DNA of 64,000 nucleotides from Rhodothermales bacterium (GTDB lineage: Bacteria; Bacteroidota; Rhodothermia; Rhodothermales; JANQRZ01): contig JANQRZ010000019.1 of NCBI GenBank assembly GCA_028284265.1, forward strand, positions 186,001-250,000, in the 5' to 3' direction. A program made the position numbers and the translations under genes. The notes beneath the pieces were generated by a model that was not told where the DNA came from, did not search any database, and saw nothing but the letters and a program-made list of their open reading frames with translations. This document shows positions 8,726 to 50,515 of this stretch, piece by piece. Positions within the stretch are counted from its first letter, which is position 1. The number at the start of each line of letters is the position of its first letter.

Positions 8726-8798
8726 AGGGATCTGCAGATGGAGTTGGGAGAGCGGAGATTAACGACGGTGCCCGTAGTGCACAACTGCACCCCAGAGA

Positions 8799-8832
8799 AA
8801 AGGCCCCCACCGTGGAGAACGGCAGAGGCCTT
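8799..8832 (-). terminator. Rho-independent terminator of the uppS-bamA-skp-skp cluster
   Basis: Read on the minus strand, AAGGCCTCTGCCGT and ACGGTGGGGGCCTT pair over 14 bp (including several G-U pairs) around a TCTCC loop, followed by TTCTCTGG. It starts 26 bp after the stop codon of the last skp gene. Confidence 0.75.
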
Positions 8833-8857
8833 GACTGGCGGGTACAGTGCCTATGAA

Positions 8858-9430
8858 TCAGCCGCCGGAGCCTGCGGGACTCTGGGTGATGCTGATGCCG
8901 AGCTTGCTCATCACCTCGGTCGTGATATCGATGGTGTTCTCCTCATCGGCGAAGAGAATCACCGGCTCGGTCGAGACGCGGGTCGAGAGCACGAGCGAGA
9001 GGCCACGAGCGGCAGCCACCTCGTCGATGGCACTCTGCAACTCGTTGAAGAGCGGCTGCAGGAGTTCGTTCTGGCGACGGTCGAGGGCCTGAAGGCGGCT
9101 CTGCTGCTCCTGCTGGAGGTCGGTCTGAAGCTGGACGATCTCTTCTTCGCGCGTCTGGCGTGCTTCCGCCGAGAGGACGCCACTCTGGTTCTGGTAGTCG
9201 GCGAACTTCTCTTGGATGGTCTGCTCCATCGTGGCAAGCTCCTGCTGGTCCTGTTGGGCCTGCGTCTGAAGCTGGGTCTGCACCTCGCGGTACTGCGGCA
9301 TCTGGACGATGATTAGCTCATAGTCGGTGAAGCCGATCCGGGCGCTGGTCTGTGCCTGCGCGGGCGCAAAGCCCACCGCGAGGAACGCGACGCACGCGAT
9401 GAGAAGGAAGAAGCGGTTGAGGTAGGTCAT
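8858..9430 (-). CDS. OmpH/Skp-family periplasmic chaperone (second copy)
   Basis: A 190-residue exported protein with a cleavable signal peptide ending AQAQ, then RIGFTDYELIIVQMP, the OmpH/Skp beta-strand start. A long glutamine-rich coiled coil follows (residues ~45-120, many EQxxLQ units), then the C-terminal strand region LVLSTRV. Skp holds unfolded outer-membrane proteins in the periplasm and delivers them to BamA, encoded just upstream. It is the last gene of uppS-bamA-skp-skp. The adjacent paralogue differs strongly in sequence. A glycine-rich tail (SPAGSGG) ends the protein. Confidence 0.92.
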   Translation of the reverse strand: MTYLNRFFLLIACVAFLAVGFAPAQAQTSARIGFTDYELIIVQMPQYREVQTQLQTQAQQDQQELATMEQTIQEKFADYQNQSGVLSAEARQTREEEIVQLQTDLQQEQQSRLQALDRRQNELLQPLFNELQSAIDEVAAARGLSLVLSTRVSTEPVILFADEENTIDITTEVMSKLGISITQSPAGSGG

Positions 9431-9475
9431 GGGTCAGGTCGATGGTGGTCAGAATCGGGTAGCAGGCGCGGCGAG

Positions 9476-10027
9476 CTAGCGTCCGGCCTGGGTTGTTTCG
9501 ATGCCGAGTTCGTCGAGGACGAGGTCGGAGATGTCGTGGTCGGTCTTGGCGTAGAGAAAGAGGAAGTCACCGCTCCGGTCGAAGACGAAGTCGTAATCCT
9601 CGTCGCGGGCGACTTGGTCGATGGCTTCAAGCACGCGCTCTTGGATAGGGCGCATCTGGCGCTGCTGCTCGCGGAAGAGTTCGCCCTCGGGACCGAAGCG
9701 CTGAATCCGGCGGGACTCTAGCTCCTGCTCCTTGGCGACGATCTCTTGGCGCTTGCGGTCGCGCTCTTCGTCGGTGAAAAGCAATTCCCGCGCCTCGAAG
9801 TCCCGAACCAGTTCGTCCACCTCGCGCTGAAGCTGGTCGAGTTCGCCCTGCCACTGCTGGGCGAGGCGGTCCAGATTCGACTGTGCCGTGCGGTATTCGG
9901 TGATCTGGTCGAGCAGGAACTCGGAATCGACATATGCGATGCGCTGCTGGGCCATCGCAGGGACCGCCACGGAGAGCACGAGGAGCAGGAGAGAGAGAAC
10001 GCGCATAGTGTCTAGTTTAGACGACAA
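9476..10027 (-). CDS. OmpH/Skp-family periplasmic chaperone (first copy)
   Basis: A 183-residue exported protein: the signal peptide ends PAMAQQ, then RIAYVDSEFLLDQ (the Skp start), a charged coiled coil from ~50 to ~120 (QGELDQLQREVDELVRDFEAR type), and the C-terminal VARDEDYDFVFDRSG strand that is classical for OmpH. It lies 12 bp downstream of bamA and 45 bp upstream of the second skp gene, all in one direction. The pairing with bamA supports a role in outer-membrane protein biogenesis. Two divergent Skp paralogues after bamA is a recurrent arrangement in this phylum. Confidence 0.93.
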   Translation of the reverse strand: MSSKLDTMRVLSLLLLVLSVAVPAMAQQRIAYVDSEFLLDQITEYRTAQSNLDRLAQQWQGELDQLQREVDELVRDFEARELLFTDEERDRKRQEIVAKEQELESRRIQRFGPEGELFREQQRQMRPIQERVLEAIDQVARDEDYDFVFDRSGDFLFLYAKTDHDISDLVLDELGIETTQAGR

Positions 10028-10039
10028 AACGACGAGCGA

Positions 10040-12586
10040 CTACTGCCCGCCGAGCGAGAACTGGAAGCGCCACTTCGGCTCGATCTCGAACGGCGTGTTG
10101 CTGCGGATGTCGGTGAACGAGTCGATCTGATAGCCGTAGTTGAGGTCGATCAGCCCGAGGAAGGGCAGGAACAGCTTGGCCCCAAACCCGGCAGAGCGGA
10201 AGAGCTTGGTCGGGTTGTAGTCGTCGAAGCTGTTCCACGTATTGGCCGCGTCGACGAACAGGTACGGCGCGGCGGTGAACTGCGGCGTCTGGATCGCCAC
10301 GATACGGGCCTCGGCGGAATACTTGTTCAGAATCCGACCGCCGACACGCCGCCCGTCCTGGAGCGGGGTGATGGCGAGCGTCGGATAGCCACGCATGAAG
10401 ATGATGTCCTTGCCGTAGCCCTGGAACGTGCTCTGCGCCTCCAGCGGCGAGCCACCGACGAGGTAGCGCTGGAACTCCACCTCATCTCCGGTCAGCGAGC
10501 CGATGTACCCGTAGTCCGCGCTGAAGTCGAGCGCGAGGCGACCGATGATGGGCGTCACCCAGCGCGTCGAGAAGCGCTCTTTGTGGTACTGGATGAAGCC
10601 GGGAATCGGGAGAGCCATTTCAGCCGAGAGCAACAGGCTCGACCCGGCGGTCGGGAATTGCGGCGCGTCGAATGAGTTGCGCGTCAGGCTCTGGCGGACG
10701 GTGAGCTCTTGGCTACTGCCTTCGGGCAACCCATAGCTCCGACTGAGCGACTCCCCGGTGAGGTCGTAGATCCGGTAGCCGATGTTGGTGCCGGTCTGGA
10801 AGAAGTCGTCCGGCCACTTGAGCGCCTGCCGGTAGAACAGGCCCGCGTTGAAGGTCGAGAACTTCTGCGAGACGGTATTGTCATCCCCACCATCGAAACC
10901 GATGAGGCGCGACGAGTTCGAGAAGTCACGGTAGGTGTACGAGAGCGAGCCACCGACGGGCGTGTTGCGCCCACGGAACCACGGCTCGGTGAACGTCACC
11001 GAGTAGCTCTGGTAGCGCAGACCGGAGGTCTGGACCGAGAGGGCCAACTGCTGCCCGTCGCCCGACGGCACGGGCCGCCACGCGCCGCCGTTGAAGAGGT
11101 TCTGGATCGAGAAGTTGTTGAACGCGACGCGGGCCTGAAGAATCAAGCCGAAGCCGCTGCCGCCCCACCCACCGGAGAGTTCGAGTTGGTCGCCGCCGGT
11201 CTCGATCATGTTGTAGGTCAGGTCCACCTTCTTCGTCTCCTCGTCGATGGAGACGCGCGGGCCTTCGGCGAGCTTCTGCTGATCGAAGTAGCCGAGCTGG
11301 ATCAACTCACGGATCGAGCGTTCAAGCGCTTGGCGGCTGTAGGTCTGGCCGGGGACCGTGCGGAGGGCGCGGCGGATGACATGCTCCTTCGTCCGCGTGT
11401 TGCCGCGAATCGTGATCTCGCCGAACTCGTAGATATCGCCCTCATCGATGGCGAAGGTGATGTCGAGCGAGTCGCCCTCGACCTCGATGATCTGCGGCTG
11501 GATGTTGAAGCGGAGATAGCCCCGGTCCGAGTAGAGCGACGTGATGTCGGTGTGCTGCGGATCGTAATAGAGGCTGCGCTCCAGCTTCGAGCGGCTATAA
11601 ACTTCGCCGCGCTCCATGTTGAGGGCGAAGAGCAACTGCTCGTCGGTGTACTCGGCGTTGCCGTCGAAGGCGAGATTGCGGATGTGGTACTTCGGCCCCT
11701 CCTCGACGCGGATGTCGATCACCATCTCCGGCTCGTCACCTGACGTGTCGAGGTAGACCGAGTCTTGGAGAATGCGAGCGCTGTAATAGCCCCGGTCGTT
11801 GTAGTAGGCGATCAGGTTCTGCTTGTCCTCCTCGAACCCTTCGCTGTCGAACGTCGAGGCCCCCCAGAAGCGCCACCACCGGTCCTCCGGGTTGTTGCCG
11901 AGTTGCTTCCGCAGCTTCTTGTCGCTGAAGGCGTCGTTGCCCTCGAAGTCGATATCGCCGATTTCGACCTTGCGGCCCCGGCTGATGTCGAACGTCACAC
12001 GCATACTGCCCTCGGGCGTCGCCTGCTGCGTGGTCTCGATAGTGACGAGCCGGAAGCCTTTCTCGGCGAAGTAGTCGCGGATGATCTGCTCACTGCGTTC
12101 GACGCCTGCTGGACGGAGCGCCTGCCCACGCAGGAGCGGAATCTGGTCTCTCAGCTTGTCCCGGTCGCCGCCTTTGATCCCCTCAAACTTGACCTCGCCG
12201 AGGCGCGGCACCTCCTCAACCCGGACCAGCAGAAACACGCCCCCGCCGACGTAGCGCTCGGCGATCACGTCCACATCGGTGAAGTTGCCCAGTTCGTAGA
12301 GCTGGCGGATGGCGTCGGAGATGGCCTGGTCGCCGGGGATCGTAACCGCTTGCCCGATGCGGAGTCCGCTGGAAGAGATTACAAACTGGCGCGCATTCTC
12401 GTCGCTCACGCCCTCGACCGACAGGCCGAGGATTTCGTAGGAGGCCGGAGCCCCGATAGCTCCACCGCCTGCCTGAGCGATAGGCTGCGATAGACCCTGC
12501 GCACCAGCAGGCAACGCGAGGGCGAGCACGCAACTCAATGCGAGGAAGGGCCGGAGCAGAGCAGAGGAAAGCGAAGTGGAAATCAC
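10040..12586 (-). CDS. bamA: Outer membrane protein assembly factor BamA
   Basis: The beta-barrel assembly machine's core Omp85 protein. It has 848 residues: signal peptide (ALALPAGAQG), five POTRA domains over roughly 45-430 (for example VKFEGIKGGDRDKLRDQI and ITIRGNTRTKEHVIRRAL), then a 16-strand barrel. MRGYPTLAITPL corresponds to the conserved (V/I)RG(F/Y) motif of loop L6, and the DLNYGYQID strand is close to the end. The protein ends FQFSLGGQ, so the usual terminal aromatic is followed by a few extra residues. It sits between uppS (64 bp upstream) and the two skp genes, the expected order. Confidence 0.97.
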   Translation of the reverse strand: MISTSLSSALLRPFLALSCVLALALPAGAQGLSQPIAQAGGGAIGAPASYEILGLSVEGVSDENARQFVISSSGLRIGQAVTIPGDQAISDAIRQLYELGNFTDVDVIAERYVGGGVFLLVRVEEVPRLGEVKFEGIKGGDRDKLRDQIPLLRGQALRPAGVERSEQIIRDYFAEKGFRLVTIETTQQATPEGSMRVTFDISRGRKVEIGDIDFEGNDAFSDKKLRKQLGNNPEDRWWRFWGASTFDSEGFEEDKQNLIAYYNDRGYYSARILQDSVYLDTSGDEPEMVIDIRVEEGPKYHIRNLAFDGNAEYTDEQLLFALNMERGEVYSRSKLERSLYYDPQHTDITSLYSDRGYLRFNIQPQIIEVEGDSLDITFAIDEGDIYEFGEITIRGNTRTKEHVIRRALRTVPGQTYSRQALERSIRELIQLGYFDQQKLAEGPRVSIDEETKKVDLTYNMIETGGDQLELSGGWGGSGFGLILQARVAFNNFSIQNLFNGGAWRPVPSGDGQQLALSVQTSGLRYQSYSVTFTEPWFRGRNTPVGGSLSYTYRDFSNSSRLIGFDGGDDNTVSQKFSTFNAGLFYRQALKWPDDFFQTGTNIGYRIYDLTGESLSRSYGLPEGSSQELTVRQSLTRNSFDAPQFPTAGSSLLLSAEMALPIPGFIQYHKERFSTRWVTPIIGRLALDFSADYGYIGSLTGDEVEFQRYLVGGSPLEAQSTFQGYGKDIIFMRGYPTLAITPLQDGRRVGGRILNKYSAEARIVAIQTPQFTAAPYLFVDAANTWNSFDDYNPTKLFRSAGFGAKLFLPFLGLIDLNYGYQIDSFTDIRSNTPFEIEPKWRFQFSLGGQ

Positions 12587-12650
12587 AAGCGGCGGTGGTC
12601 TAGGCGCAGGTCTTTGCTGGGGTCAGGCAACGAACGGCAAACAAGCAGGG

Positions 12651-13460
12651 TTATTGTTCCGAAATGAGGGCACCATTCGGTGCCTCTGGTACCCGCCCGA
12701 AGCGTCGCTCGCGGTTCTGAAAGTCTTCGATAGCGGCGTAGAGCGCCTCCCGGCGGAAGGCAGGCCAGTAGGTGTCGGTGAGATAGAACTCGGTGTAGGC
12801 GAGTTGCCAGAGAAGGAAGTTGGAAATCCGCACATCGCCCCCGGTGCGAATCAGCAGATCAGGGTCCGGGATACCAACTGTGTCGAGGTGCGATGCAATG
12901 AGAGCCTCGTCCACGGCCTCAGGGGCGAGTCGTCCGGCTTGGACTTCTTCGGCGATGCGGCGGGCGGCGCGAGCGATTTCCCAGCGCCCGCTGTACGACA
13001 GGGCAAGGTTGAGCGTCATCCGCGTGTTGTCGCGCGTGAGGTCTTCGGCCTCGCGCATTTCGGCGGCGGCGCGGCGTGGCAGCCTGTCGAGTTCACCGAG
13101 GGTGCGAACGCGGATGTTGTTCTCTTGGAGCCGCCCCACCTCGCGGCGAATCGTGCGGACCAGCAGTTCCATCAAGGCCGTCACTTCCTTCGGTGGGCGC
13201 TGCCAGTTCTCAGTCGAAAATGTGTAGAGCGTGAGGTGCTGCACACCGATCTGCGCGCACGCCTCGGTGATATCTCGCACCGACTCGACGCCCTCGCGGT
13301 GCCCGGCGACCCGGCTCTGCCCCCGACTCTTGGCCCAGCGCCCGTTGCCATCCATAATCGCGGCGATGTGCACCGGAATCTGGCCGCGCGCCTGCAACGC
13401 TTGCTGGCGGGCCGCGTCGGCGTCCGTCTGGGGTGTTTTGGTCAGCGAGACCGTAGACAA
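12651..13460 (-). CDS. uppS: Isoprenyl (undecaprenyl) diphosphate synthase
   Basis: Condenses isopentenyl diphosphate onto farnesyl diphosphate to make the lipid carrier for cell-wall and polysaccharide synthesis. About 269 residues. IMDGNGRWAKSRG holds the catalytic Asp and diphosphate-binding loop, GHREGV is the next conserved block, TLYTFSTENWQRP is a signature, and RTGGDVRISNFLLWQ carries the conserved Arg pair. The start is uncertain: the in-frame TTG at 13460 gives a ~30-residue leader before PVHIAAIMDG, and no convincing Shine-Dalgarno sequence is visible. It is first in the uppS-bamA-skp-skp cluster. Confidence 0.95.
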   Translation of the reverse strand: MSTVSLTKTPQTDADAARQQALQARGQIPVHIAAIMDGNGRWAKSRGQSRVAGHREGVESVRDITEACAQIGVQHLTLYTFSTENWQRPPKEVTALMELLVRTIRREVGRLQENNIRVRTLGELDRLPRRAAAEMREAEDLTRDNTRMTLNLALSYSGRWEIARAARRIAEEVQAGRLAPEAVDEALIASHLDTVGIPDPDLLIRTGGDVRISNFLLWQLAYTEFYLTDTYWPAFRREALYAAIEDFQNRERRFGRVPEAPNGALISEQ

Positions 13461-36786: not shown

Positions 36787-37926
36787 ATGCCTGCCTCCTC
36801 CCCGTCCCGCGTCGTGTTCGCCCTCGTCGGCGATGTGCGAGCGTCATCGCGTGCCCTTCGCCAACTGCGAGCGCTCGCTGACATGGGGCTGGAAGTAGAC
36901 GTGCTGACGTTCGGCCCACCCGCCCAGCCGGACGAGGTAGCGGAGGGTGTCCGCCTGCACGTACTCGACGAGCCGGGCGGGCAGGGACCGCTCTTCTTCC
37001 GCCGAGCGCACCGACTGTTCCAGCGCGAAGCGTCCAAGTGCCGGGCGGATGTATACCACGCCAGCGACCTCTATACACTCCCGGCTCTCGCAGCGGCGGC
37101 GAAGAAGCACAGCGCCCGCCTCGTCCTCGACGCCCGAGAACTGTATCCACACGTCGATGCCACCGCCGGAAAGCCGTGGGCAACGCGCGTGTGGACCGCG
37201 CTGGAACGGCGCTACCTCCCCCGCACCGATGCCGTGCTGACGGTCAACGACAGCATCGCCGACCGGATGGCCGATACCTACGGCATCGAGCGACCCATCG
37301 TCACCCACAACGTCCCCGAGCGGCAGGCAGTGCCTCGCACCGACGCGCTCCGCGACCTCCTCGGAATTCCCGCCGAACGGAAGATCGTGCTCTATCAGGG
37401 CCTCGTCCGCGTCGGGCGTGGGCTACGGACGCTCATCGACGCCCTGCGCGATGTGCCGGACGCCCACCTCGTCGTCATCGGCGACGGGCCGAACAAGCAC
37501 GTCATCATCGGGCACGCCAGCACGTCGCTCCCCGGACGCGCCCACTTTCTGCCTCACACGCCGCCCGACGACCTGCTTCGCTTCACCGCTTCGGCAGACC
37601 TTGGGGTGCATATCCCCCGGCCCATCACGCTCAGTATCTACCTCGCGCTGCCGAACAAGCTGTTCGAGTACCTGATGGCGGGCCTGCCCGTCGTAGTCGC
37701 CGACATCCCGGAGATGCAGCGTGTGCTCGACGAACACGAGGTCGGCTTGACGGTCGATCCGCACGACCGCGACGCCATCGCCGAGGCGATCCAGCGGGCA
37801 CTCACCGACACCGAAGCCCGGCAGCGCTGGCAGGCAAATGCCCCATCGGTCTTCGAGACATTCCGCCCGGAAGAAAGCAAAGACCGCTTCCAGCAGGTCT
37901 ACCGCGACCTGCTCGGCATGGGCTAG
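36787..37926 (+). CDS. Glycosyltransferase family 4 protein
   Basis: A 379-residue GT-B-fold transferase. The N-domain starts VVFALVGDVRASSRALRQLR and contains ADVYHASDLYTLPAL. The C-domain has KIVLYQGLVRVGRGLRTLID, then HLVVIGDGP and the donor-binding PNKLFEYLMAGLPVVVADIPE, where the E of FEY is the family's nucleotide-sugar contact. Likely role: envelope or extracellular polysaccharide synthesis; donor and acceptor are unknown. It is divergent from the HtrA gene and not in a sugar cluster. The ATG at 36787 is preferred over the TTG at 36778. Confidence 0.92.
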   Translation: MPASSPSRVVFALVGDVRASSRALRQLRALADMGLEVDVLTFGPPAQPDEVAEGVRLHVLDEPGGQGPLFFRRAHRLFQREASKCRADVYHASDLYTLPALAAAAKKHSARLVLDARELYPHVDATAGKPWATRVWTALERRYLPRTDAVLTVNDSIADRMADTYGIERPIVTHNVPERQAVPRTDALRDLLGIPAERKIVLYQGLVRVGRGLRTLIDALRDVPDAHLVVIGDGPNKHVIIGHASTSLPGRAHFLPHTPPDDLLRFTASADLGVHIPRPITLSIYLALPNKLFEYLMAGLPVVVADIPEMQRVLDEHEVGLTVDPHDRDAIAEAIQRALTDTEARQRWQANAPSVFETFRPEESKDRFQQVYRDLLGMG

Positions 37927-38513
37927 TCTTGGCGCGGGCGGATCGGGACGCTGATAGCGGTGTTGCCCCACATGATGCGAAGGTCGGCCCCATAGCCTGC
38001 CGACACGAAGTCGATGGTAAACGCCTCGACCGGCGGCATGAGCGGTGCCGGGGCCACGTCTACCGTGAGCACGTCGAGCGCGGGGTCGTACTCATCGGCG
38101 AGGTGCATCCCGAGGGCCGAGTTGAAGTGGAGCGTCCAGCGATCCAAGCGCGGCGTAGTGAAGAGGCTGTAGACACCCGGCTCCAGCGGCAGCCCACCGA
38201 CGGTGACCGGAACGGTGACGACCAACTCGGTGGCTTGGTGCGCGCCTGTGGCCCACACCTGATTCCACGCGACGAGGCCACCGAAGATTTGCCGTCCACG
38301 CACATACGGCTTGCCGTAGACGATGTGGAGGTAGCCGCCGTTCGGCAGCCGCGCTCCGGCGCGTCCGACCGCACTCCCCGGCGGCACGTCTTCGAGATCA
38401 ACGCGCAGCCCTTCGACGAGAAATGTCTCGGTGGCTGGGGTAGCCGTGTGGTGCTGCGCGGCAACAGGTATCGCCGTAAAGCAAATCGCGGCAAGCAGGA
38501 GTCGGCTAGTCAT
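37923..38513 (-). CDS. DUF2911 domain-containing secreted protein
   Basis: A 196-residue exported protein with a signal peptide ending PVAAQ. DUF2911 is recognised from VYGKPYVRGRQIFGGLVAWN then QVWATGAHQATELVVTVPVT and PLEPGVYSLFTTP. This family is common in Bacteroidota and has no established function. It overlaps the upstream DJ-1-like gene by 8 bp, so the two exported proteins are made together. Its stop overlaps the convergent glycosyltransferase stop by four bases. Confidence 0.88.
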   Translation of the reverse strand: MTSRLLLAAICFTAIPVAAQHHTATPATETFLVEGLRVDLEDVPPGSAVGRAGARLPNGGYLHIVYGKPYVRGRQIFGGLVAWNQVWATGAHQATELVVTVPVTVGGLPLEPGVYSLFTTPRLDRWTLHFNSALGMHLADEYDPALDVLTVDVAPAPLMPPVEAFTIDFVSAGYGADLRIMWGNTAISVPIRPRQD

Positions 38514-39318
38514 CGGTCTGTTCGGTTTCGAGTTGTTCCATGAGGGGCAGGACGCCCATGTCGTACATCGCCTGCATCATCTGCAGCACGTCGGGGCGCG
38601 TGGTCTCGGGGCTGCCACCGGGGATAGGCGGAGCAGGATCGTACTCCATGTCAAGCATCACGCCCTGCGTGTAGCCCTCGCCCCAAAGATCGTTCATGAT
38701 GGCAAGCGACATGTCCATCCCGGCGGTGACGCCCGCCGAGGTCCAGTACTTCCCGTCGTTCGTGTAGCGCTCGTCGGTGAACGTCGCGCCGTATTTCGCC
38801 AACATCTCCTCGGCGCGGTACCAGTTGGTGGTGGCGCGGCGACCACGCAGGAGACCTGTCGCCGCGAGCACCCAGCCGCCGGTACAGACCGCCGCCGTGT
38901 ACGTCGTCGTTTGGTCGATCTGCCGAATCCAGTCGTGGATACCGCTGTCGTAGACGGCCTCGATGGTGCCGCGAAAGCCGCCGGGGACGACGAGAATGTC
39001 GAGCGCGTCGACCTCGGCCATCATCGTGTCGGGCACGATCTCGGTCCCCATAACCGTCGTGATGTGCCCCGGCTCGACGCTAACCAAGAAGGTCTTTGCG
39101 CCCATGAGCTGGCCGAGAACGTACTTTGGCCCCATCACGTCGAGATCGTTAACGCCGTCGTAGACGAGGATGCCGACCGTGCGGATATCATGCTTCGGCG
39201 TGCCGAGCATCTCGGCCATCACGGCATCGTGATTCTCGGGGGTGATGACGAGGGTGGTGTCCTGCGCAGCGACAGGCAACGCGAGGCCGAGCAGGATAGC
39301 GAGCAGAATAGGTTTCAT
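38506..39318 (-). CDS. Exported DJ-1/PfpI family protein
   Basis: A 270-residue protein with a signal peptide (LLAILLGLALPVAAQ). The DJ-1/PfpI domain spans ~45-235: VGILVYDGVNDLDVMGPKYV, then LDILVVPGGFRGTIE, the nucleophile-elbow AAVCTGGWVLA with Cys145, and GVTAGMDMSLAIMNDLWG. The upstream acidic residue at the DGVNDLDV position fits the GlxA-like amidase/isocyanide-hydratase-type subgroup. Export is unusual for this mostly cytosolic superfamily. A ~35-residue C-terminal tail ends in an acidic stretch. It is co-transcribed with DUF2911. Confidence 0.88.
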   Translation of the reverse strand: MKPILLAILLGLALPVAAQDTTLVITPENHDAVMAEMLGTPKHDIRTVGILVYDGVNDLDVMGPKYVLGQLMGAKTFLVSVEPGHITTVMGTEIVPDTMMAEVDALDILVVPGGFRGTIEAVYDSGIHDWIRQIDQTTTYTAAVCTGGWVLAATGLLRGRRATTNWYRAEEMLAKYGATFTDERYTNDGKYWTSAGVTAGMDMSLAIMNDLWGEGYTQGVMLDMEYDPAPPIPGGSPETTRPDVLQMMQAMYDMGVLPLMEQLETEQTDD

Positions 39319-39359: not shown

Positions 39360-41729
39360 CTAGTAGCGTGCGCGCAGGGTGACGCCGAGCGTGCGCGGCG
39401 GCCCGGCGAGGCTGCGGCGGTTGAACGACGTGTCGGGCGAGCCGTAGACGAGCACCCGCTCATCCGTCAGGTTCTCCACCCAAAACGCCGCCTCGAACCG
39501 ACCTGCCTCGACGCCGATACGCCCATCGAGGATGGTGTAATCATCCTGCCGGAGGTCGTTCTGGATGTCGGTGAAGTAGCCGCCGACGTTGCGGACCTCG
39601 GCGCGGGCAAAGACGGCGACGCCCGACGCGACGGGCACGCGGTACTGCGCCGCACCGTAGAGCGTCCGCCCCGGCGCATTTGCCAGCCGGTTGCCGCTCA
39701 CCACCGTCTCGACATCCTCAAACGTCTCGGGGTCGGAGCGGACGAGCACGAAGTCCTCGTACTCGGTATCGAGCAGACTGAGGGCTGCGTCGAGACGGAG
39801 GCCATCCACTGGGAGCGCCGAGACCTCGACCTCAACACCCATCGAGCGCGCATCGCCGACGTTTTCGCGGGCGAAGGTGAACGGCCCGACGAGGTTGAAG
39901 AACTGAAGATCGGTCCACGAGATGAGAAACGCCGCCACGTTCGCCGAGAGCCGGTCGTTGAACCGTCCCTTCGCCCCGACCTCGATGTTGTCCGAGTATT
40001 CGGGATCGAACGTGACCGACGCATCGACGCCCGGTGCGAAGCGCTGTGCGTTGACGCCACCCGCACGGAAGCCGCGTGTGTAGGAGGCGTAGACGCTCGC
40101 CGCCTCGGACACGGCATAGCTCAGAGCGACCTTCGGCGAGAGCGCACTGTACGAGCCGTCCACCGTCGTATCGGGTCGGGCAACGGTCTCGACACCGCCT
40201 TCGAGCACGGCATCGCCGAAGCCGTTGAACGTCGCCTCGCGCCGCTCGTAGTCGAACCGCAGCCCGAGCGTGAGGTCGAGCCAGTCCACGAGGCCGACGG
40301 TCGCCTGCCCGTAGGCGGCGAAGCCTGCGTTGTCGGCCTCGTTGCGGAAGATGGCGAACGAGTCGTCGCCTGTGCGGAACGTCAGGTTGGTCGTCGGCTC
40401 CTGCGCCGTCTGGAGGAATCCGAAGATGCCGACCGTCGCCTCGACCGGCGCATCGCGGCCCGCCGTCGTGGCGCGGACCTCTTGCGAGAGCACCGTCTGC
40501 ACGTTGCGCCCGCCGCGCTCGCCGTCGGCGAACGAATCGAAGATGCCACCCGAGTCGATGTCTTCGAACTTCAACCCGATCCGCTGAACGGTCGAGGTCG
40601 AGGTTACGGCAACGGCGGGGGCGGTGTAGGTCAGCGCGAGCGTGCCGTTCAGGATATCCCGCTCGTGCGAACCGACGCGGGCGAGGTTGAGCGCGTCGGG
40701 GGTCTCCATCGCGATCTCCTCGCTCGTCGCCCCGACGAAGAAGGCGCTCGCGTCCGAGGACTCAAGTTGGGCTTTGAGGTTGAGCGTCGCGTCGAACTGC
40801 TCAGATGGCAGCCACCGCAGGGTCGCGTTTCCATAGAGTGCCTGCTCCTCCCCGACCTCGGCTCCGGCTGCCGTCGGGATCGGCGCGAATGTACCGGTCG
40901 TGTCGTTGTCGAAGTAGCCGTCGCGCCGCTGATAGAGCACGGACGCTCCGCCGAACAACTCGCCCCGAGCAATCGGCCCGCGCACGCCTGCGGCATAGCG
41001 TTGTAGCCCGAGATTGCCTGCGCTCGCTTCGGCGAAGCCCGCGATAGCATCGGTCGGTCGCCGCGTGACGATGTTCACAACCCCGCCGAGCGCGTTCCGC
41101 CCGAAGAGCGTCGTCTGCGGCCCACGCAGCACCTCGATCCGCTCGATATCGGTGAGCGCGAAGCCGCCCGCGAGGATATCCACCCCGTTGACGCCGTCCA
41201 CGTAGGTCACGACCGCCGGGTTCTCGCTGAACACTTGAATGCCGCGAATCGACTGGAGCGCTTGGAAGCCGACGCCGGACTCTTGGTACAGATAGCTCGG
41301 CACGCGTCCGTTGAGGTCACCGACGGTCCACACGCGGGCGTCCTCCACCTCCCGCGCCGGAATCGACGTGACCGCGATGGGTGCATCGAGCAGCCGCGCC
41401 TCGTCGCGCTCGGCGGTGACCACCACATCGTCAAGCGCCGTATCGGCGGCGCGGAGGATGAGGCGCAGGTCGGACGCTGGAGCTTCGACCGGCACGATCC
41501 GCGTGGCATAGCCGACAGCGCTGACGCGAAGCTGGTAGGGCCCCGGTGCAAGGTCGAGCGCGAAGCGCCCGGCCTCGTCGGTAGCTGTGCCCTGCTGCGT
41601 GTTGAGCACGGCGACGTTGGCGAAGGAAACGGAGACACCAGCCGCGTCGGTGACGGTGCCGGTTATGGTAGGTTGAGCAGAGGCAGTCACCGCGAAGAGA
41701 CCGCCGAGAAGTACGAAGAGGGCGCGCAT
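39360..41729 (-). CDS. TonB-dependent outer-membrane receptor
   Basis: A 789-residue receptor. The signal peptide ends TASAQ, then a carboxypeptidase-regulatory-like domain (ITGTVTDAAGVSVSFANVAV) at ~20-100, then a plug domain (~115-225: DAPIAVTSIPAREVEDARVW; GPQTTLFGRNALGGVVNIVT), then a 22-strand barrel ending LGVTLRARY. The plug lacks an N-terminal secretin/TonB extension, so it is a transport receptor, not a transducer. Ligand is unknown; the following cysteine membrane protein, MauG-like and TolB-like genes, all on the same strand, suggest a metal or redox substrate. The start at 41729 is the signal-peptide ATG. Confidence 0.93.
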   Translation of the reverse strand: MRALFVLLGGLFAVTASAQPTITGTVTDAAGVSVSFANVAVLNTQQGTATDEAGRFALDLAPGPYQLRVSAVGYATRIVPVEAPASDLRLILRAADTALDDVVVTAERDEARLLDAPIAVTSIPAREVEDARVWTVGDLNGRVPSYLYQESGVGFQALQSIRGIQVFSENPAVVTYVDGVNGVDILAGGFALTDIERIEVLRGPQTTLFGRNALGGVVNIVTRRPTDAIAGFAEASAGNLGLQRYAAGVRGPIARGELFGGASVLYQRRDGYFDNDTTGTFAPIPTAAGAEVGEEQALYGNATLRWLPSEQFDATLNLKAQLESSDASAFFVGATSEEIAMETPDALNLARVGSHERDILNGTLALTYTAPAVAVTSTSTVQRIGLKFEDIDSGGIFDSFADGERGGRNVQTVLSQEVRATTAGRDAPVEATVGIFGFLQTAQEPTTNLTFRTGDDSFAIFRNEADNAGFAAYGQATVGLVDWLDLTLGLRFDYERREATFNGFGDAVLEGGVETVARPDTTVDGSYSALSPKVALSYAVSEAASVYASYTRGFRAGGVNAQRFAPGVDASVTFDPEYSDNIEVGAKGRFNDRLSANVAAFLISWTDLQFFNLVGPFTFARENVGDARSMGVEVEVSALPVDGLRLDAALSLLDTEYEDFVLVRSDPETFEDVETVVSGNRLANAPGRTLYGAAQYRVPVASGVAVFARAEVRNVGGYFTDIQNDLRQDDYTILDGRIGVEAGRFEAAFWVENLTDERVLVYGSPDTSFNRRSLAGPPRTLGVTLRARY

Positions 41730-41884
41730 GAGAGGTCGGGCTAGGGATCGAAGAGACGAGGCGACCTTCTCACCGCATGCGACCCGCACACCGCTCCCTG
41801 TTTAGGAAGACGGAACAGGCGCGGCACCGCCTCATCCACCGAGGGGTGCGTGGCAACCGAAGATTCGCCGGAGAGCAGTTCGCG

Positions 41885-42301
41885 CTACGCTCTCGGCGGA
41901 TGGAATACCCCAGCCTGATGGCCGCTACGTTCAGCGCTCGGCGCAACAGACATCCATGGGCGCTCGTGCCCGTCAGGAGGCGCTAGCTCCTGCTGCGTCA
42001 CTGCAACGGCGGCAACCGCGAGCGCTACTTCGAGGAACCCTTTCTGCTCCTCGTCATGCTTCTGCTGCTCACGCATCCGGTCGGCGAGGAAGCACTTGCC
42101 CTCGCAGTCCAGTTCCGGCAGATTCTGATTGACGCAGAGCACCTCCGCGATGTAGTCCTGCCGCAGCAGGAACGTGCCCTGCACCAACAGCAAGCCCTGT
42201 GTACTCAGCACGACAGCGAGCACGAGCGCAATGCGGACGATATGGACCAGTCGGAGCAACACAGATTCGGATGATACGACGAGTTGCCAGCGATACCGCA
42301 C
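41885..42301 (-). CDS. Small membrane protein with a conserved cysteine motif
   Basis: A 138-residue protein (GTG start; in-frame GTGs slightly downstream also possible). A hydrophobic helix (IVRIALVLAVVLSTQGLLLVQG, ~22-43) is followed by EVLCVNQNLPELDCEGKCFLADRM, giving the pattern C-x(9)-C-x(3)-C. Proteins with this CVN...C.GKC(F/Y)L pattern are common upstream of TonB receptors in Bacteroidota and may bind a metal or haem; I know no assigned function. The C-terminus is polar and low-complexity. It lies 156 bp upstream of the receptor, same strand. Confidence 0.65.
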   Translation of the reverse strand: MRYRWQLVVSSESVLLRLVHIVRIALVLAVVLSTQGLLLVQGTFLLRQDYIAEVLCVNQNLPELDCEGKCFLADRMREQQKHDEEQKGFLEVALAVAAVAVTQQELAPPDGHERPWMSVAPSAERSGHQAGVFHPPRA

Positions 42302-42345
42302 CGGTCTGCCTCGCCACAGCGACCGTCTGAAACGCCGTCTCGGGG

Positions 42346-43386
42346 TTATGGCGTCAGGGTCTGACTGACCGGCGCGGCCTGATCGTCAAGCGTGCGGAGA
42401 AACGCGATGAGGGCGGCACGCTCGGTGTCGGTCAGATGGAGCGGACCGATGCGAACGTCCTGCCCCGGCGTGCCGTCGCCACCTCGGTCGTAGTGATCGA
42501 CCACGGCATCGAGCGTGGAAAAGCGCCCGTCGTGAAAGTAGGGAGCGGTGCGGGCGACAGCGCGCAGGCTGGGGATGCGGAACAGGCCCCGGTCGGCGGG
42601 ATCGGACGTGATGCGCTCTCGGCCTGGGTCTTCATCGCTCACCGCTGCGCCGTTGTTGGCGAAGCCGTCGGTCGTGAGGTGCGGCCCGGCGTGGCACTTC
42701 TGGCAGTGAATCTCGAACAAGACGAGGCCGCGCACTTCGGCTTCGTTGAACGCCTCAGCCTCACCCGCTCGATACCGATCAAAGCGGGTGGGGGCGCTGA
42801 CGAGCGTGCGCTGGAACGCGGCGAGGGCATCAATGAGCGTCGGCTCGCTTGGGCCTTGGCCGTTGAACGCCTCGGCGAAGAGGGTGGGATACTCGGGGTG
42901 TGCCTTGAGACGGGCTAGGGCCTCCCGGACCGGCAGGTCCATTTCGAGCGAGTCGCCGAGCGGGACGAGCGCCTGATGCTCCAGCGACGGGTGCTCACCG
43001 TCCCAGAACAGCGAGCGGCGATAGGCCACGTTCAGCAGACTCGGCGCGTTCCTCAGCCCCCGCCGCCCCTGCACCCCGACGCTCCGCAGGTGCCCATCCG
43101 TAAACGCCTTTTCTCGTAGATGGCACGTCCCGCACGACACCGTCCGGTCGGACGAGAGAATCGGGTCGAAAAACAGCCGCTCGCCGAGGGCGACGCGGTG
43201 GGCGAGCAGTGGGCCCTGCGACGGCACTGCCCTGAACCCGTCGGGCACCGGGACCGACACGACAGCGGGACCGTCCGGCGGAGGATCATCAGACGGGGGA
43301 CCGTCCGAGTGGAGCGTGCCACACGCAGCCACCGCGAAGGCGATAGCGGGTACGAGCACCGAGGCGAGGAATCGCTGCATCATCAT
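42346..43386 (-). CDS. Dihaem cytochrome c peroxidase/MauG family lipoprotein
   Basis: A 346-residue exported protein. The signal ends VAACG (lipobox Cys22). Two c-type haem motifs are present: CGTCH at 85-89 and CQKCH at 228-232. Blocks such as RNAPSLLNVAYRRSLFWDGE then HPSLEHQALVPLG, and FRIPSLRAVARTAPYFHDGR are typical of the bacterial dihaem peroxidase/MauG family. It may reduce peroxide or oxidise a protein or metal substrate in the periplasm. Three consecutive ATGs (43386, 43383, 43380) are possible starts. It is followed by the cysteine-motif gene and TonB receptor. Confidence 0.93.
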   Translation of the reverse strand: MMMQRFLASVLVPAIAFAVAACGTLHSDGPPSDDPPPDGPAVVSVPVPDGFRAVPSQGPLLAHRVALGERLFFDPILSSDRTVSCGTCHLREKAFTDGHLRSVGVQGRRGLRNAPSLLNVAYRRSLFWDGEHPSLEHQALVPLGDSLEMDLPVREALARLKAHPEYPTLFAEAFNGQGPSEPTLIDALAAFQRTLVSAPTRFDRYRAGEAEAFNEAEVRGLVLFEIHCQKCHAGPHLTTDGFANNGAAVSDEDPGRERITSDPADRGLFRIPSLRAVARTAPYFHDGRFSTLDAVVDHYDRGGDGTPGQDVRIGPLHLTDTERAALIAFLRTLDDQAAPVSQTLTP

Positions 43387-43426
43387 GCCATAGGATACAG
43401 CCGATTCGCGCCGATGCCAGACCGGC

Positions 43427-44602
43427 TTACGGCACCACCGCGACGGTCTGGAACGTAGAATCCACCGCTTCGGGGGTCTCGATCCAATCGGCGACGAAGA
43501 TATTGGTGTCGCGGCTCTGCTGCCGGTCGACGCGGCGGTTCGAGGCGAAGACCAATTTGTCGCCGCTATAGGAGTACATCGGGAACGCGTCGAAGGTACC
43601 GCTATGCGTGACCTGCGTGAGGTTCTGCCCGTCAACGTCGACGAGGAAGAGGTCGAAGAGGCGACCGCTCTCAGAGTGATGATTCGAGGCGAAGAGAATC
43701 TTCTCGCCGGACGGGTGGAAGAACGGTGCCCAGTTCGCGCCGGGGAGGTCCGTCACGCGGACGGCGTTCTGGCCGTCCGCGTCGGCCACATAGAGGTCGA
43801 GCGCGGAGGGTTGAACGCGACCGTCGGCGAGGAGATCGCTGTACTGCTGCGCCTCTGTGCCCTCGGGCCGACTCCCGCGCCACACGATCCGCTCGCTATC
43901 CGGCGAGAAGAACGCGCCGCCGTCGTAGCCGAGCGTGTTCGTGAGTTGGATCGTCTCGCCCGTCTCGATCTCGTAGCGCCACAGGTCGAGGTCGCCGGAG
44001 CGGGTCGAGGTAAAGACGATGTAGCGGCCATCGGGACTGACGGTCGGCTCGGCGTCGTAGCCGGGGCTGTCAATGAGGAGCTCGCGGTTCTGGCCGTCGG
44101 CGTCGGCGACGTAGATGTCGTAGTCGGAGTAGATGGGCCACGTATATACGCCGGGCACAGCCTCGGGCGGCGTCGGGCAGGCGGGGCTGCCTCCAGCCGT
44201 CGAGGCAAAAACGACGCGGCCGTCGGTGAGGAAGTAGCCGCATGTCGTCCGCCCCTCGCCCGACGAAACGAGGCGGTAGCGCAAACCGTCATCGAGCATT
44301 GAGCCGTCGGCGTTCATGATGAACTGCTGGTCACAGCCCTGATCGTTGATCTCGGCCCAGTCGCTCTGAAAGATGAGTTGCGAGTCGTCGAAGCTCCAGT
44401 AGGCCTCGGCATTGTTGCCGCCGAAGGTGAGTTGCCGGACGTTGCGGAGGTGGACTTCGCCTGTAAATCGGAGCGTGTCGGTGGCAGGGTCGTAGGCGCT
44501 CGTATCAGGATCGGCAACGTCGTCTTGGACCTGGCAGCCAGTGGCGAGGAGCGTAGCGAAGAGAGAGACGGCAAGGGTCGTGCGGAAGATCGAACTCATC
44601 AC
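43427..44602 (-). CDS. TolB-like PD40 beta-propeller lipoprotein
   Basis: A 391-residue exported lipoprotein (lipobox TGC, Cys23). The body is a beta-propeller of PD40 units: repeats with the pattern PDGRYIVFTSTRSGDLDLWR are seen at roughly 75, 155, 205, 245, 305 and 350, for example FHPSGEKILFASNHHSESGR and YSYSGDKLVFASNRR. It lacks the TolB N-terminal domain, so it is a propeller-only protein of unknown partner. It is the first gene of the same-strand set with MauG, the cysteine membrane protein and TonB receptor (40 bp before MauG). Confidence 0.88.
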   Translation of the reverse strand: MMSSIFRTTLAVSLFATLLATGCQVQDDVADPDTSAYDPATDTLRFTGEVHLRNVRQLTFGGNNAEAYWSFDDSQLIFQSDWAEINDQGCDQQFIMNADGSMLDDGLRYRLVSSGEGRTTCGYFLTDGRVVFASTAGGSPACPTPPEAVPGVYTWPIYSDYDIYVADADGQNRELLIDSPGYDAEPTVSPDGRYIVFTSTRSGDLDLWRYEIETGETIQLTNTLGYDGGAFFSPDSERIVWRGSRPEGTEAQQYSDLLADGRVQPSALDLYVADADGQNAVRVTDLPGANWAPFFHPSGEKILFASNHHSESGRLFDLFLVDVDGQNLTQVTHSGTFDAFPMYSYSGDKLVFASNRRVDRQQSRDTNIFVADWIETPEAVDSTFQTVAVVP

Positions 44603-48177: not shown

Positions 48178-48411
48178 ATGTCCGATGCCGTGTTCTCCTA
48201 CCACACGAGCCAAGATGGCAAGGTGTTCATCGCGTGGCATGGGCGGACGGTGACGACACTCAAAGGAGCCAAGGCCCAACACTTCCTCCGCCGCATCGAA
48301 CGAGTCGACGCGGCGGAGGCACAGCTTCTGATGGCGAAAGCGGCGGGCAACTTCAAGCGGGGCAACGAGCACCGACTGAGGCTTACATCGCGGCCAAGTC
48401 ACGCACCGTAG
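48178..48411 (+). CDS. Conserved small hypothetical protein
   Basis: A 77-residue protein starting at the ATG six bases after the previous stop (a GTG at 48169 overlaps that stop). The pattern FSYHTSQDGKVFIAWHGRTV then TTLKGAKAQHFLRRI and a C-terminal MAKAAGNFKRGNEHR matches a small conserved family I have seen annotated only as hypothetical; the N-G-K-V-x-I...HGR..TTL.G..A..FL and GN.KRGNE blocks are its signature. It overlaps the convergent LVIVD gene by 29 bp at the 3' ends. Confidence 0.75.
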   Translation: MSDAVFSYHTSQDGKVFIAWHGRTVTTLKGAKAQHFLRRIERVDAAEAQLLMAKAAGNFKRGNEHRLRLTSRPSHAP

Positions 48412-50359
48412 CGGCAACCATCCGCACCTTCGCCGCATCGCGGGCCGACCCGGCCTGCCCATCGAGCATCTCGGCGAGGCCCGTCAGCGCCGCGTTCCGC
48501 GTCGAACCCGACGCGCCTTCAGCACCGTCGAGCGCTTCCCGCGCTGCCGCGATCCGCGCCGCATCGAGACCACCGGAGCGTTCGAGTTGGTCGAGGTAGG
48601 CATGAGCCAGCGAGAAGGTAGTGGGCCAGACGAATTTCGGCTGTCCCTGCGCGTTGAGGTAGTCGAGGCGAACCGTGTTGGCGGCGTCGATCTCGTGCTG
48701 CGAAAGGTAGGCGCTCGGCGTGAGTTCAAAGATATCGAGGCCGCGGGCGATCTCGGAGTTGACGATCAGGCCGTTGTACCAGTAGACGGACCAGCTTCCG
48801 CCCATCACGAACTGCTCCGGGTCGATGGGGCCGCGGTCGTGGAACGCGATCTCGACGGGGTTCGCGGGATCGGTCCAGTCGAAGATCGAGATGCCGCCTT
48901 GGTACCAGCCCTGCACCATGACGTCGCGGCCGGGGATCGGGATGAGTGAACCATTGTGGGCGACGCAGTTTTCTTCGGGCGTCTGCGCGGCGGGCATTTT
49001 GTAGTAGCTCTGAAAGACCATCTCGCCGTCTTCAATCGTGAAGAGCGCGTTCGCGCCCCACTCGTAGGGGTCGTCCACGCGGCACTTCGGCTGGCCGCCG
49101 CCGCCCCATTCATCGGTGAAGAGGACCGCCGTACCGTCGTTGTTGAAGGTCGCCGAGTGCCAGTAGGCAAAGTTCGAGTCGGCGACCGCATCAGTACGGC
49201 GCGGGTTGGCCGGATCAGAGATGTCAAGCAACAACCCATAGCCTTCGCACGCACCGCCCGCGAGACCGATCTCTGGATAGAGCGTGATGTCGTGGCACTG
49301 CGTCGGGCCGGGGGCGGGGCCATCGCCCTCCTCCTCATCGTCCCCGAACCAGTTGGCGGCGATAGCCGGGAGCCGCTCGCGGAGCATCGTGCTGTCGGCG
49401 GCGGTCGGCGCCCCCGAACCGCCGCGCTGGGCGACCATCTGACCGAGAAGCTGCATGACGAATCCATCCGGCACGACGAACGACGTACCATTCGGTCGGT
49501 CCACGACGAACCCGCCGGTGGCGCGTGCCTCCTCAACGGCGGCGATATCCGCCGGGGCCATGCCATGACTCGGCGGCTCTACGAGGCCGTCGAAGATACG
49601 CGGCGAAGAGACGATGGCGGCGGCCTGCGGGTTGTCGAGCGGCACCTTGATGACCTCGATGCGGAACAGCGCCGAGTTCGGGTCTTCGTCGGGCGCGGCA
49701 TCCGAGCAGCCCGGCAGTTCCTCTTCGGGCCGCACGCCCGCCGAGCCGGAGATGTAGACGTAGACATTCTCATCGTCATCCGGGTCTTTGAGGACGGAGT
49801 GCGTGTGCGAACCGCGGCACGTCTGCACGTTGGCGATGTACTCGGGGTTGCGAATGTCGGTGATGTCGAAGATGCGGATACCACGCAGGCGGTCTGGGCT
49901 CACACGCTGGTCGTTCCCCTGCGTCCCACAGTCGAGCCGACCGCCGAGGCCCTCGCCCGAGACGAAGAGCAGGTTCTCGTAGACCGACACGTCGCTCTGC
50001 GACGCCGGGCAGAGGTACTCCGTCACGAGGTCCGGCGAGGCCGGGTTCGCGAGGTCCCATACGAGGACGCCGTTGTAGTTGCCCTGGATCGCGTACTGGT
50101 CCTTGAAGGCGAGGTCCGAGTTGGTGACGCCGACGAAATCTTCCGGCGGGCGCGTCGTCGAGACCATGCGGAGGTTCCAGATGGCTTCCTCGGCATCGAA
50201 GAGGCCGCCGCCGAGGCCGACGCGCGGATCAGGCGTCGGCGGACCGGCTTGGTCTATCTTCTTCATCATCGAGGACGTATTCTGCGTGGACGAGCACGCG
50301 GCGAGGCCGACGAGCGCGGCGGCGCACAGGGCGAAGGCGAAAAAGCGAGGGGTGGTCAT
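48383..50359 (-). CDS. LVIVD-repeat beta-propeller lipoprotein
   Basis: A 658-residue exported lipoprotein (signal LAACSSTQ). Repeated units read like LVIVD propeller blades: NYNGVLVWDLANPASPDLVT, RGIRIFDITDIRNPEYIANV, YGLLLDISDPANPRRTDAVA and GGISIFDWTDPANPVEIAFH. Between them lie Cys-containing segments (TEYLCPASQS, QTCRGSHTHS, TQCHDITLYP, PKCRVDDPYE), so disulphides are likely. A C-terminal ~90 residues are helical (LDQLERSGGLDAARIAAARE). LVIVD proteins are common and unassigned; they often precede DUF305 genes as here (157 bp upstream), suggesting a shared envelope role. Confidence 0.88.
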   Translation of the reverse strand: MTTPRFFAFALCAAALVGLAACSSTQNTSSMMKKIDQAGPPTPDPRVGLGGGLFDAEEAIWNLRMVSTTRPPEDFVGVTNSDLAFKDQYAIQGNYNGVLVWDLANPASPDLVTEYLCPASQSDVSVYENLLFVSGEGLGGRLDCGTQGNDQRVSPDRLRGIRIFDITDIRNPEYIANVQTCRGSHTHSVLKDPDDDENVYVYISGSAGVRPEEELPGCSDAAPDEDPNSALFRIEVIKVPLDNPQAAAIVSSPRIFDGLVEPPSHGMAPADIAAVEEARATGGFVVDRPNGTSFVVPDGFVMQLLGQMVAQRGGSGAPTAADSTMLRERLPAIAANWFGDDEEEGDGPAPGPTQCHDITLYPEIGLAGGACEGYGLLLDISDPANPRRTDAVADSNFAYWHSATFNNDGTAVLFTDEWGGGGQPKCRVDDPYEWGANALFTIEDGEMVFQSYYKMPAAQTPEENCVAHNGSLIPIPGRDVMVQGWYQGGISIFDWTDPANPVEIAFHDRGPIDPEQFVMGGSWSVYWYNGLIVNSEIARGLDIFELTPSAYLSQHEIDAANTVRLDYLNAQGQPKFVWPTTFSLAHAYLDQLERSGGLDAARIAAAREALDGAEGASGSTRNAALTGLAEMLDGQAGSARDAAKVRMVAATVRDLAAM

Positions 50360-50411
50360 GGCAGGGTTGGGTGAGATAGAAGAGTCAGGCTGGTGCTGAG
50401 TCTGATGACCT

Positions 50412-50499
50412 GTCATTTCGAGCTTAGCGAGAAATCCCCTTCGGTAGCCTTTTGCAAAACGTCGAGGCGGGAGATCCCTCACATACGTTCGGGATGACA
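50412..50499. repeat. Intergenic palindromic repeat, family B-like (divergent copy 3)
   Basis: GTCATTTCGAGCTTAGCGAG on the left and CATACGTTCGGGATGACA on the right form looser arms related to families A and B. It fills most of the gap between the DUF305 and LVIVD genes. Confidence 0.6.
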
Positions 50500-50515
50500 C
50501 GTTCTAACGAAGGTG

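Follow-up and report, generated by a model that had tools for sequence, protein, structure and literature searches.

A candidate copper-responsive leader peptide family in Bacteroidota and a probable eroded MbnP/MbnH copper operon of Rhodothermales

Introduction

Two small bacterial proteins, CruR of Bordetella pertussis and CutF of Rhodobacter capsulatus, are the closest described parallels to the subject of this study, a family of small proteins with a conserved cysteine cluster (the Cys family), one member of which is encoded directly before the gene of a TonB-dependent receptor (TonB1) in a Rhodothermales bacterium (Bacteroidota). The locus lies in a stretch of 64,000 nucleotides (nt) of contig JANQRZ010000019.1, positions 186,001 to 250,000, which is called the window below. 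CruR, a DUF2946 protein, is small and predicted to be exported, carries a CXXC motif and a C-terminal RAPP 45 residues apart, and provides post-transcriptional, copper-responsive control of a TonB receptor gene; it is described as sensing cytoplasmic copper, with no need for its signal peptide (PMC9426467). As far as the text of that report goes, CruR homologues head operons with genes for TonB-dependent transporters, SCO, PCuAC and MbnPH-like proteins in organisms outside the Bacteroidota (PMC9426467). RAPP and RGPP define a class of arrest peptides, arrest of CruR at RAPP has been shown in vitro, and leaders of this class precede TonB genes throughout Gram-negative bacteria, while none is reported before the copper-related genes surveyed in Bacteroidota (PMC12992588).

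CutF has a CxxxC motif, a common kind of copper site, and a Pro-rich end, and it detects extracytoplasmic copper while it is being exported co-translationally (PMC9973294). The same report states that CruR and CutF act in opposite directions and that 40% of CutF-like proteins (19% before normalising) come from Bacteroidota (PMC9973294). About 50 residues of extended chain span the distance between the peptidyl transferase centre and the periplasmic opening of SecYEG (PMC7513700).

In the window, four minus-strand genes for a PD40 beta-propeller lipoprotein, a dihaem enzyme of the MauG/cytochrome c peroxidase (CCP) superfamily (the window MauG), the Cys protein and TonB1 are separated by gaps of 40, 44 and 95 bases. 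An original prediction, made from the sequence of the window, had taken them for a candidate metal/redox uptake system in which a metal complex would plausibly be imported and oxidatively processed at the envelope; the open reading frame (ORF) list and family searches place all four genes where it had put them. Here we describe the Cys gene as most likely encoding a copper-responsive leader peptide that controls the next gene, and we consider it probable that this leader sits in an eroded and reordered MbnP/MbnH copper operon.

Results

The window Cys protein had no Pfam or NCBIfam match at E<=0.01 and no Pfam match at E<=1. With a profile built from 17 members, whose full length includes the Pro-Pro columns, the family was found in 151 of 394 Bacteroidota genomes. 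The C-x9-C-x3-C motif that the original prediction had spotted, and in which the value of the finding lies, is real and turned out to be the signature of this protein family. For a closer comparison, 119 sequences were searched (the window and loci L056-L075, L096-L107 and L138-L223), including 60 further loci that were chosen from the matches listed, best scores first and then a spread of weaker ones, and so not at random. They gave 109 profile hits, which after removal of one duplicate and one hit cut by a contig end left 107 distinct members.

The three Cys residues and the Gly before the last Cys are invariant in all 107, and the first spacing is x9 in 98, x6 in 7 and x10 in 2. Every member has a Pro-Pro within its last 15 residues (105 of 107 within the last 9), and in 101 it stands 2-5 residues before the stop; such a Pro-Pro arose in 8.7% when the 70 C-terminal residues were shuffled, and it was found in 29 of 601 other ORFs of at least 350 codons, which are open frames rather than proven genes. 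Between the last Cys and Pro-Pro the spacing is 63-75 residues (mean 67.5, standard deviation 2.3, n=107). Averaged over 3000 random pairs, members are 9.8% identical to each other in the middle region and 44.9% identical in the Cys block. It might be objected that the profile itself selects for the Pro-Pro tail. This objection is addressed by a profile of the N-terminal columns, run over the same fetched loci as the full-length one, which recovered the same proteins, all with Pro-Pro (108 of 108, the duplicate included), and by a more independent set of named loci found by N-terminal DNA patterns, in which all 24 usable loci have Pro-Pro; for 20 of them the confirming alignment ends by residue 114 of 138, and 4 alignments reach the tail. 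In 98 of the 107 members a hydrophobic segment lies N-terminal to the first Cys, its midpoint about 25 residues away. AlphaFold2 was tried for a compact structure of the window protein and gave none: the model has helices up to residue 91, of which no more than about the first 40 residues are predicted with good confidence, and then a disordered tail (predicted template modelling score 0.32).

A same-strand ORF starts near the stop of the Cys gene in 105 of 107 cases, 90 of them at 33-225 bases, a count that does not test strand, since the downstream gene was picked as the longest same-strand ORF starting near the stop; 6 of the 105 picks overlap a longer ORF on the opposite strand, and the two members without a downstream ORF are in L075 (179 bases from the contig end) and L175. 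These downstream ORFs match Plug in 47 cases, MbnP in 24, Phenol_MetA_deg in 8, YtkA in 7, SCO in 5 and CCP_MauG in 2, counts that can overlap within one protein, and 33 of the 105 match the copper TonB model TIGR01778. On the upstream side, a crude gene picker saw an opposite-strand neighbour in 29 members, a same-strand neighbour at least 100 bases away in 45, a nearer same-strand one in 30 and none in 3. A second Cys-type leader occurs in the window genome (G000) on the plus strand (L066 8413-8790, contig G000:C2), 77 bases before a Phenol_MetA_deg-like protein (RPDGHAPIGVMGDHTH), and L192, L193, L198 and L200 each carry two Cys-type leaders on the same strand, separated by about 2.2-2.5 kb and each followed by an ORF in the same orientation.

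The upstream side of all 29 MbnP places over cut-off in the window's order (sampled by 114 genomes) was inspected. A Cys leader stands there in 8, and in 12 there is instead a leader of a second kind, a small protein in which one Cys is conserved and R(G/A)PP lies close to the C terminus; one more of this kind ends in RDPP (G011), 7 have neither, and one place, in G046, is cut by a contig end, a Cys-family gene lying at the end of another G046 contig. The places without a leader are G107:C15, G021:C159, G028, G105:C128, G106:C50, G023:C283 and G029, and the six of them that are present in the tree described below form one separate MbnH group. In eleven aligned leaders of the second kind, Pro-Pro stands 2-7 residues before the end and 49-51 residues from the Cys. 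The searched loci contain 10,310 ORFs with a length of 50-220 codons, and 23 of these, the eleven included, have R(G/A)PP in the last 12 residues. Six of nine scanned leaders of this kind gave weak DUF2946 matches, all under cut-off. Homology between the two kinds was not detectable by profile comparison, which gave a probability of 5.4% for their relation. To our mind this swap of leaders at one position is the strongest single argument for reading the Cys protein as a leader, because a leader with a proven arrest motif occupies the same place elsewhere.

The possibility that the Cys family is DUF2946 (PF11162) under another guise was ruled out, there being no PF11162 match to the Cys protein at E<=1 and no shared places: none of 18 DUF2946 matches in 148 genomes falls at a Cys-family place, and no Cys-family ORF was seen at the DUF2946 places of G133, G177 and G198. 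As separate observations, G133 and G198 (L231, L232) have weak DUF2946 matches with an RGPP end and a CPLC or CTLC motif; these seem to be genuine CruR-type leaders of Bacteroidota that score under the DUF2946 cut-off. The window genome holds another weak match under cut-off (G000:C20:151063-151359), as well as a small minus-strand ORF (L066 13202-13648, G000:C2) with a CXXC (LCVLC) and a C-terminal IRGPPAVA, a CruR-type leader that the DUF2946 search did not report and that ends 83 bases before a TonB receptor ORF (10701-13118).

The sister species in the same genus (G032) has the order PD40-CYS-MbnP-MbnH-YtkA-TonB2-SCO-PCuAC-TonB1, followed by DJ-1 and DUF2911, and its proteins are 86% (PD40), 55% (Cys protein), 77% over 308 residues (MbnH) and 88% (TonB1) identical to those of the window. 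YtkA, SCO and PCuAC were assigned by Pfam, and MbnP by TIGR04052 (under cut-off) and PF20243 (over cut-off); going by their families, MbnP, SCO and PCuAC are predicted copper proteins. Receptors that follow MbnH at a distance of about 1 kb in G048 and G045 share 70% and 66% identity with TonB2 of G032, and the G086 receptor in that same position matches TIGR01778 under cut-off. MbnP, over cut-off in 24 of the 114 genomes of the order, had no match by either model (TIGR04052, PF20243) in the window genome, the completeness of which is 97.86%, and TonB2 had none there at 1e-30. SCO and PCuAC are absent from the window locus; the rest of the window genome was not searched for them.

The window MauG, rightly described in the original prediction as a dihaem CCP/MauG protein, carries one CXXCH motif at residue 85 and a second at residue 228. 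A tree of 34 rows (28 MauG-match loci plus six rows from other loci; it omits the partial G011 match as well as most matches that had no locus) makes it sister to the G032 MbnH with support 98/93 and nests this pair in a group of 18 (100/99), in which every row except that of the window adjoins MbnP. By descent, the tree indicates, the window MauG is an MbnH, one that would have lost its partner. Its best Protein Data Bank (PDB) match is 6e1c (1.3e-45, listed as 'Di-heme enzyme'), which we take to be MbnH, and its Tyr299 aligns with a Tyr of 6e1c and with a Met of the peroxidase 6qkn, at the position of the distal Met of CCP. In MauG-type enzymes the Tyr at this position is a haem ligand, and MbnH oxidises Trp to kynurenine in its partner MbnP. 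The best NCBIfam model is TIGR04039 (MbnH), and the protein is under the curated MauG cut-off too. The branch of the window MauG is 0.28 long and that of G032 is 0.12, which fits a relaxed constraint, if weakly.

Across the 114 genomes, PD40 (E<=1e-60) was found in 75, MauG (E<=1e-20) in 41, the Cys protein (E<=0.001) in 15 and TonB1 (E<=1e-120) in 2, namely G000 and G032. PD40 occurs without a MauG match, for example in G033, of the same family, and in eight genomes G034-G041, and MauG occurs without PD40 in G006, G007, G029, G051, G053 and G054. G033 keeps PD40 (76%) together with a thioesterase/dehydratase/SDR/DinB block on the other side of PD40, and within the 18.5 kb fetched there it has no match to MauG, the Cys protein, TonB1, DJ-1 or DUF2911. 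PD40 counts as a core gene of the order. Since it stays without the rest in G033, and PD40 and MauG each occur alone, it is a neighbour that lies outside the copper module and bounds it on the upstream side. A role of PD40 as a replacement MbnP was also considered and is unlikely, because it is conserved where no MauG was found. The 'TolB-like' label of the original prediction reflects a shared repeat only, and identity with TolB is ruled out by a score of 111.9 bits, far under the TolB cut-off of 343.15. By eye, genes resembling those for a metal ABC transporter and a DtxR-like regulator follow PD40 in G033 (L096, about 7928-12664), in place of the copper remnant.

The features of the locus are collected in Table 1. 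The family matches of the window proteins are far beyond chance for PD40, CCP_MauG, the TonB barrel (1.2e-37), Plug (3.9e-15) and CarboxypepD_reg (4.3e-16), the last three bearing out the earlier description of TonB1 as a receptor with a carboxypeptidase-regulatory module; the best PDB match of TonB1 is the pesticin receptor 4epa (8.6e-35). MauG most likely starts at ATG 43386 (346 aa), which is favoured because the listed ORF extends into PD40; TonB1 probably starts at ATG 41729 and not at GTG 41789, and the true start of the Cys protein may be internal, for example at 42262. Two further genes, for DJ-1/PfpI and DUF2911 proteins, lie downstream on the same strand as the four, and the TonB1-DJ1-DUF2911 block was seen only in the window's genus. 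Farther away, a large minus-strand ORF of the window (48383-50500) is 80% identical in G032 over 642 residues.

Table 1. Genes and sequence elements of the window locus
Feature	Position	Strand	Match
PD40 beta-propeller lipoprotein	43427..44602	-	PF07676 3.4e-32
MbnH-type dihaem enzyme (MauG/CCP superfamily), without partner MbnP	42346..43386	-	CCP_MauG 3.5e-51
Small Cys protein, 138 aa, proposed copper-responsive leader peptide (CutF/CruR-like)	41885..42301	-	
C-x9-C-E-G-K-C, putative Cu site, Cys residues 56, 66 and 70	42092..42136	-	
C-terminal FHPPRA abutting the stop codon, putative ribosome-arrest motif	41888..41905	-	
Intergenic stretch from leader stop to probable TonB1 ATG, 155 nt	41730..41884	-	
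TonB1, TonB-dependent receptor with carboxypeptidase-regulatory domain; gene now behind the leader	39360..41789	-	
DJ-1/PfpI protein, adjoins TonB1 in G032 too	38506..39318	-	70-76% identity at G032 locus (L056)
DUF2911 protein, overlaps DJ-1	37923..38513	-	75-77% identity at G032 locus (L056)

Discussion

Compared with its sister cassette, the window locus is best read as the remnant of a copper operon lying between the core gene PD40 and the TonB1-DJ1-DUF2911 block, from which MbnP, YtkA, TonB2, SCO and PCuAC would have gone and in which MbnH and the Cys gene would have swapped order, so that MbnH would have been deprived of the partner it usually has, while the Cys gene would now stand immediately before TonB1. 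The gaps between the remaining genes leave little room for remnants of lost genes, and the difference between the two genomes appears to reflect loss in the window lineage rather than gain elsewhere. The locus resembles the MbnP/MbnH module (TIGR04052/PF20243 and TIGR04039) in the descent, haem motifs and Tyr of its MauG and in the presence of the whole module in the sister genome, and differs from it in the missing MbnP match, the changed order and the missed MbnH cut-off. Copper is most likely the metal concerned, as suggested by the MbnH descent of the MauG and by the MbnP, SCO and PCuAC of the sister cassette.

With CruR, the Cys family shares an N-terminal hydrophobic part, a Cys motif and a C-terminal Pro-Pro before a TonB receptor or an MbnPH operon, whereas the window has C-x9-C-x3-C and FHPPRA in place of CXXC and RAPP, and the family spacing is 63-75 in place of 45 residues. 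With CutF, it shares CxxxC, a Pro-rich C terminus and the operon position. CutF-like proteins were selected by a length below 150 aa, PP in the last 15 residues, an N-terminal signal and a same-strand next gene within 1000 nt (PMC9973294), and the window protein falls within the length, PP and next-gene filters with its 138 aa, its FHPPRA and a next gene 95 nt away; as to the N-terminal signal, what is seen is a hydrophobic segment. In contrast to CutF, no stem-loop was found before the next gene in the window, and what follows Cys-family genes is mainly TonB or MbnP and not a multicopper oxidase. The Cys family may already be among the CutF-like Bacteroidota proteins of that report (PMC9973294). 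In the literature we found no description of the Cys family before MbnP in Bacteroidota, the supplementary clusters of PMC9973294 being outside the scope of this search. Finally, while 33 of 105 ORFs behind Cys leaders resemble the OprC-type copper TonB receptors of TIGR01778, TonB1 of the window differs from these in that its first 450 residues do not match the model and its nearest solved structure is the pesticin receptor.

Our findings lead us to propose that the leader would be exported co-translationally, its Cys cluster leaving the Sec channel as the ribosome reaches the Pro-Pro before the stop, that copper on the Cys cluster would alter stalling at Pro-Pro, and that this stalling would set the expression of the next gene, which would be TonB1 in the window and the MbnP-headed cassette in G032. 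The Cys residues would then lie just outside the Sec channel and meet periplasmic copper, because their spacing of 63-75 residues from Pro-Pro has to be set against a path of about 50. Copper binding, stalling and control of TonB1 by the Cys leader are what we infer here, and copper could turn the next gene either on or off, since CruR and CutF act oppositely. More broadly, we lean toward the combined view that Bacteroidota own a copper-sensing arrest-peptide family with an F(H/R/K)PP-like tail and a ruler of 63-75 residues that reads periplasmic copper, without detectable relation to CruR, and that Cys leaders and R(G/A)PP leaders substitute for one another in front of the MbnP/MbnH operons of this order.

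Several observations weigh against these proposals. Most RAPP-like sequences of Escherichia coli and Bacillus subtilis proteins did not stall efficiently in published tests (PMC10987492), and the FHPP tail of the window leader differs from RAPP/RGPP to begin with. The window leader is not the first gene of its run, since 44 nt separate it from the end of MauG, and a same-strand neighbour lies less than 100 nt upstream in 30 of the 107 members. A CutF-type stem-loop before TonB1, sought by folding positions 41727-41890 against shuffles, did not appear (z -0.43). TIGR01778 is not among the 24 families matched by the first 450 residues of TonB1, nor, in a scan of the whole receptor, among the 25 listed of the 31 families matched. 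Furthermore, 7 of the 29 MbnP places have neither leader, and the window MauG reaches only 227 bits with the MbnH model, under its cut-off of 362.85.

Other explanations have to be considered for each part of this picture. The Cys protein might itself be functional, as a periplasmic Cu(I) chaperone anchored in the membrane, with an SCO-like CxxxC and a Pro-Pro tail that binds a partner protein; CxxxC is a common copper site, the hydrophobic segment before the first Cys in 98 of 107 members would serve as an anchor, and the neighbours include copper proteins. However, the residues between Cys and Pro-Pro are hardly conserved and yet their number is, Pro-Pro stands 2-5 residues before the stop in 101 of 107 members, the structure prediction shows no compact fold, and the same operon position is taken elsewhere by R(G/A)PP leaders, all of which makes a chaperone quite improbable. 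A slightly better case, if still an unlikely one, can be made for an MbnH that is no relic and has taken up a new substrate, such as TonB1 or the PD40 protein, because both CXXCH motifs and Tyr299 are intact and the frame is open and 75-77% identical to that of G032. The conservation of PD40 (76%) in genomes without a MauG match, such as G033, speaks against this, as does, weakly, the longer window branch with its hint of relaxed constraint.

That MbnP and the other genes are missing merely through an assembly error or in the remaining 2% of the genome would agree with a completeness of 97.86%, but the locus lies inside a contig of 491,763 bases with intergenic gaps of 40, 44 and 95 bases, MbnP, YtkA, TonB2, SCO and PCuAC are all absent from it at once, and the genes left are not in the G032 order, so we regard this as very improbable. 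Least credible of all is the system of the original prediction, in which PD40, MauG, the Cys protein and the TonB receptor would jointly import and oxidatively process a metal complex. Its four genes do lie on one strand with short gaps, and their products all appear exported or membrane-bound by sequence; however, they do not co-occur across the order, on which ground we reject a four-gene redox uptake system, and TonB1 is found in 2 of 114 genomes, in the other of which, G032, the four are not contiguous. Import of a metal complex followed by its oxidation by MauG found no support in this analysis. What survives of the prediction is metal handling with a MauG-family enzyme, which the MbnH descent and the sister cassette favour, and the Cys motif itself; for the protein that carries it, a regulatory role as a leader peptide is likelier than a functional part in an uptake route.

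If our reading of the Cys protein as a copper-responsive leader is true, a family without a Pfam or NCBIfam model would be a copper switch for TonB receptors and MbnP operons of Bacteroidota, and nascent-chain metal sensing would extend to this phylum, where the RAPP/RGPP survey reports no such leaders before copper-related genes (PMC12992588). Two unrelated leaders on the same operon would amount to a natural swap and provide a test case, and the orphan MbnH of the window genome would be a natural knock-out of MbnP in which to ask what else this enzyme can do.

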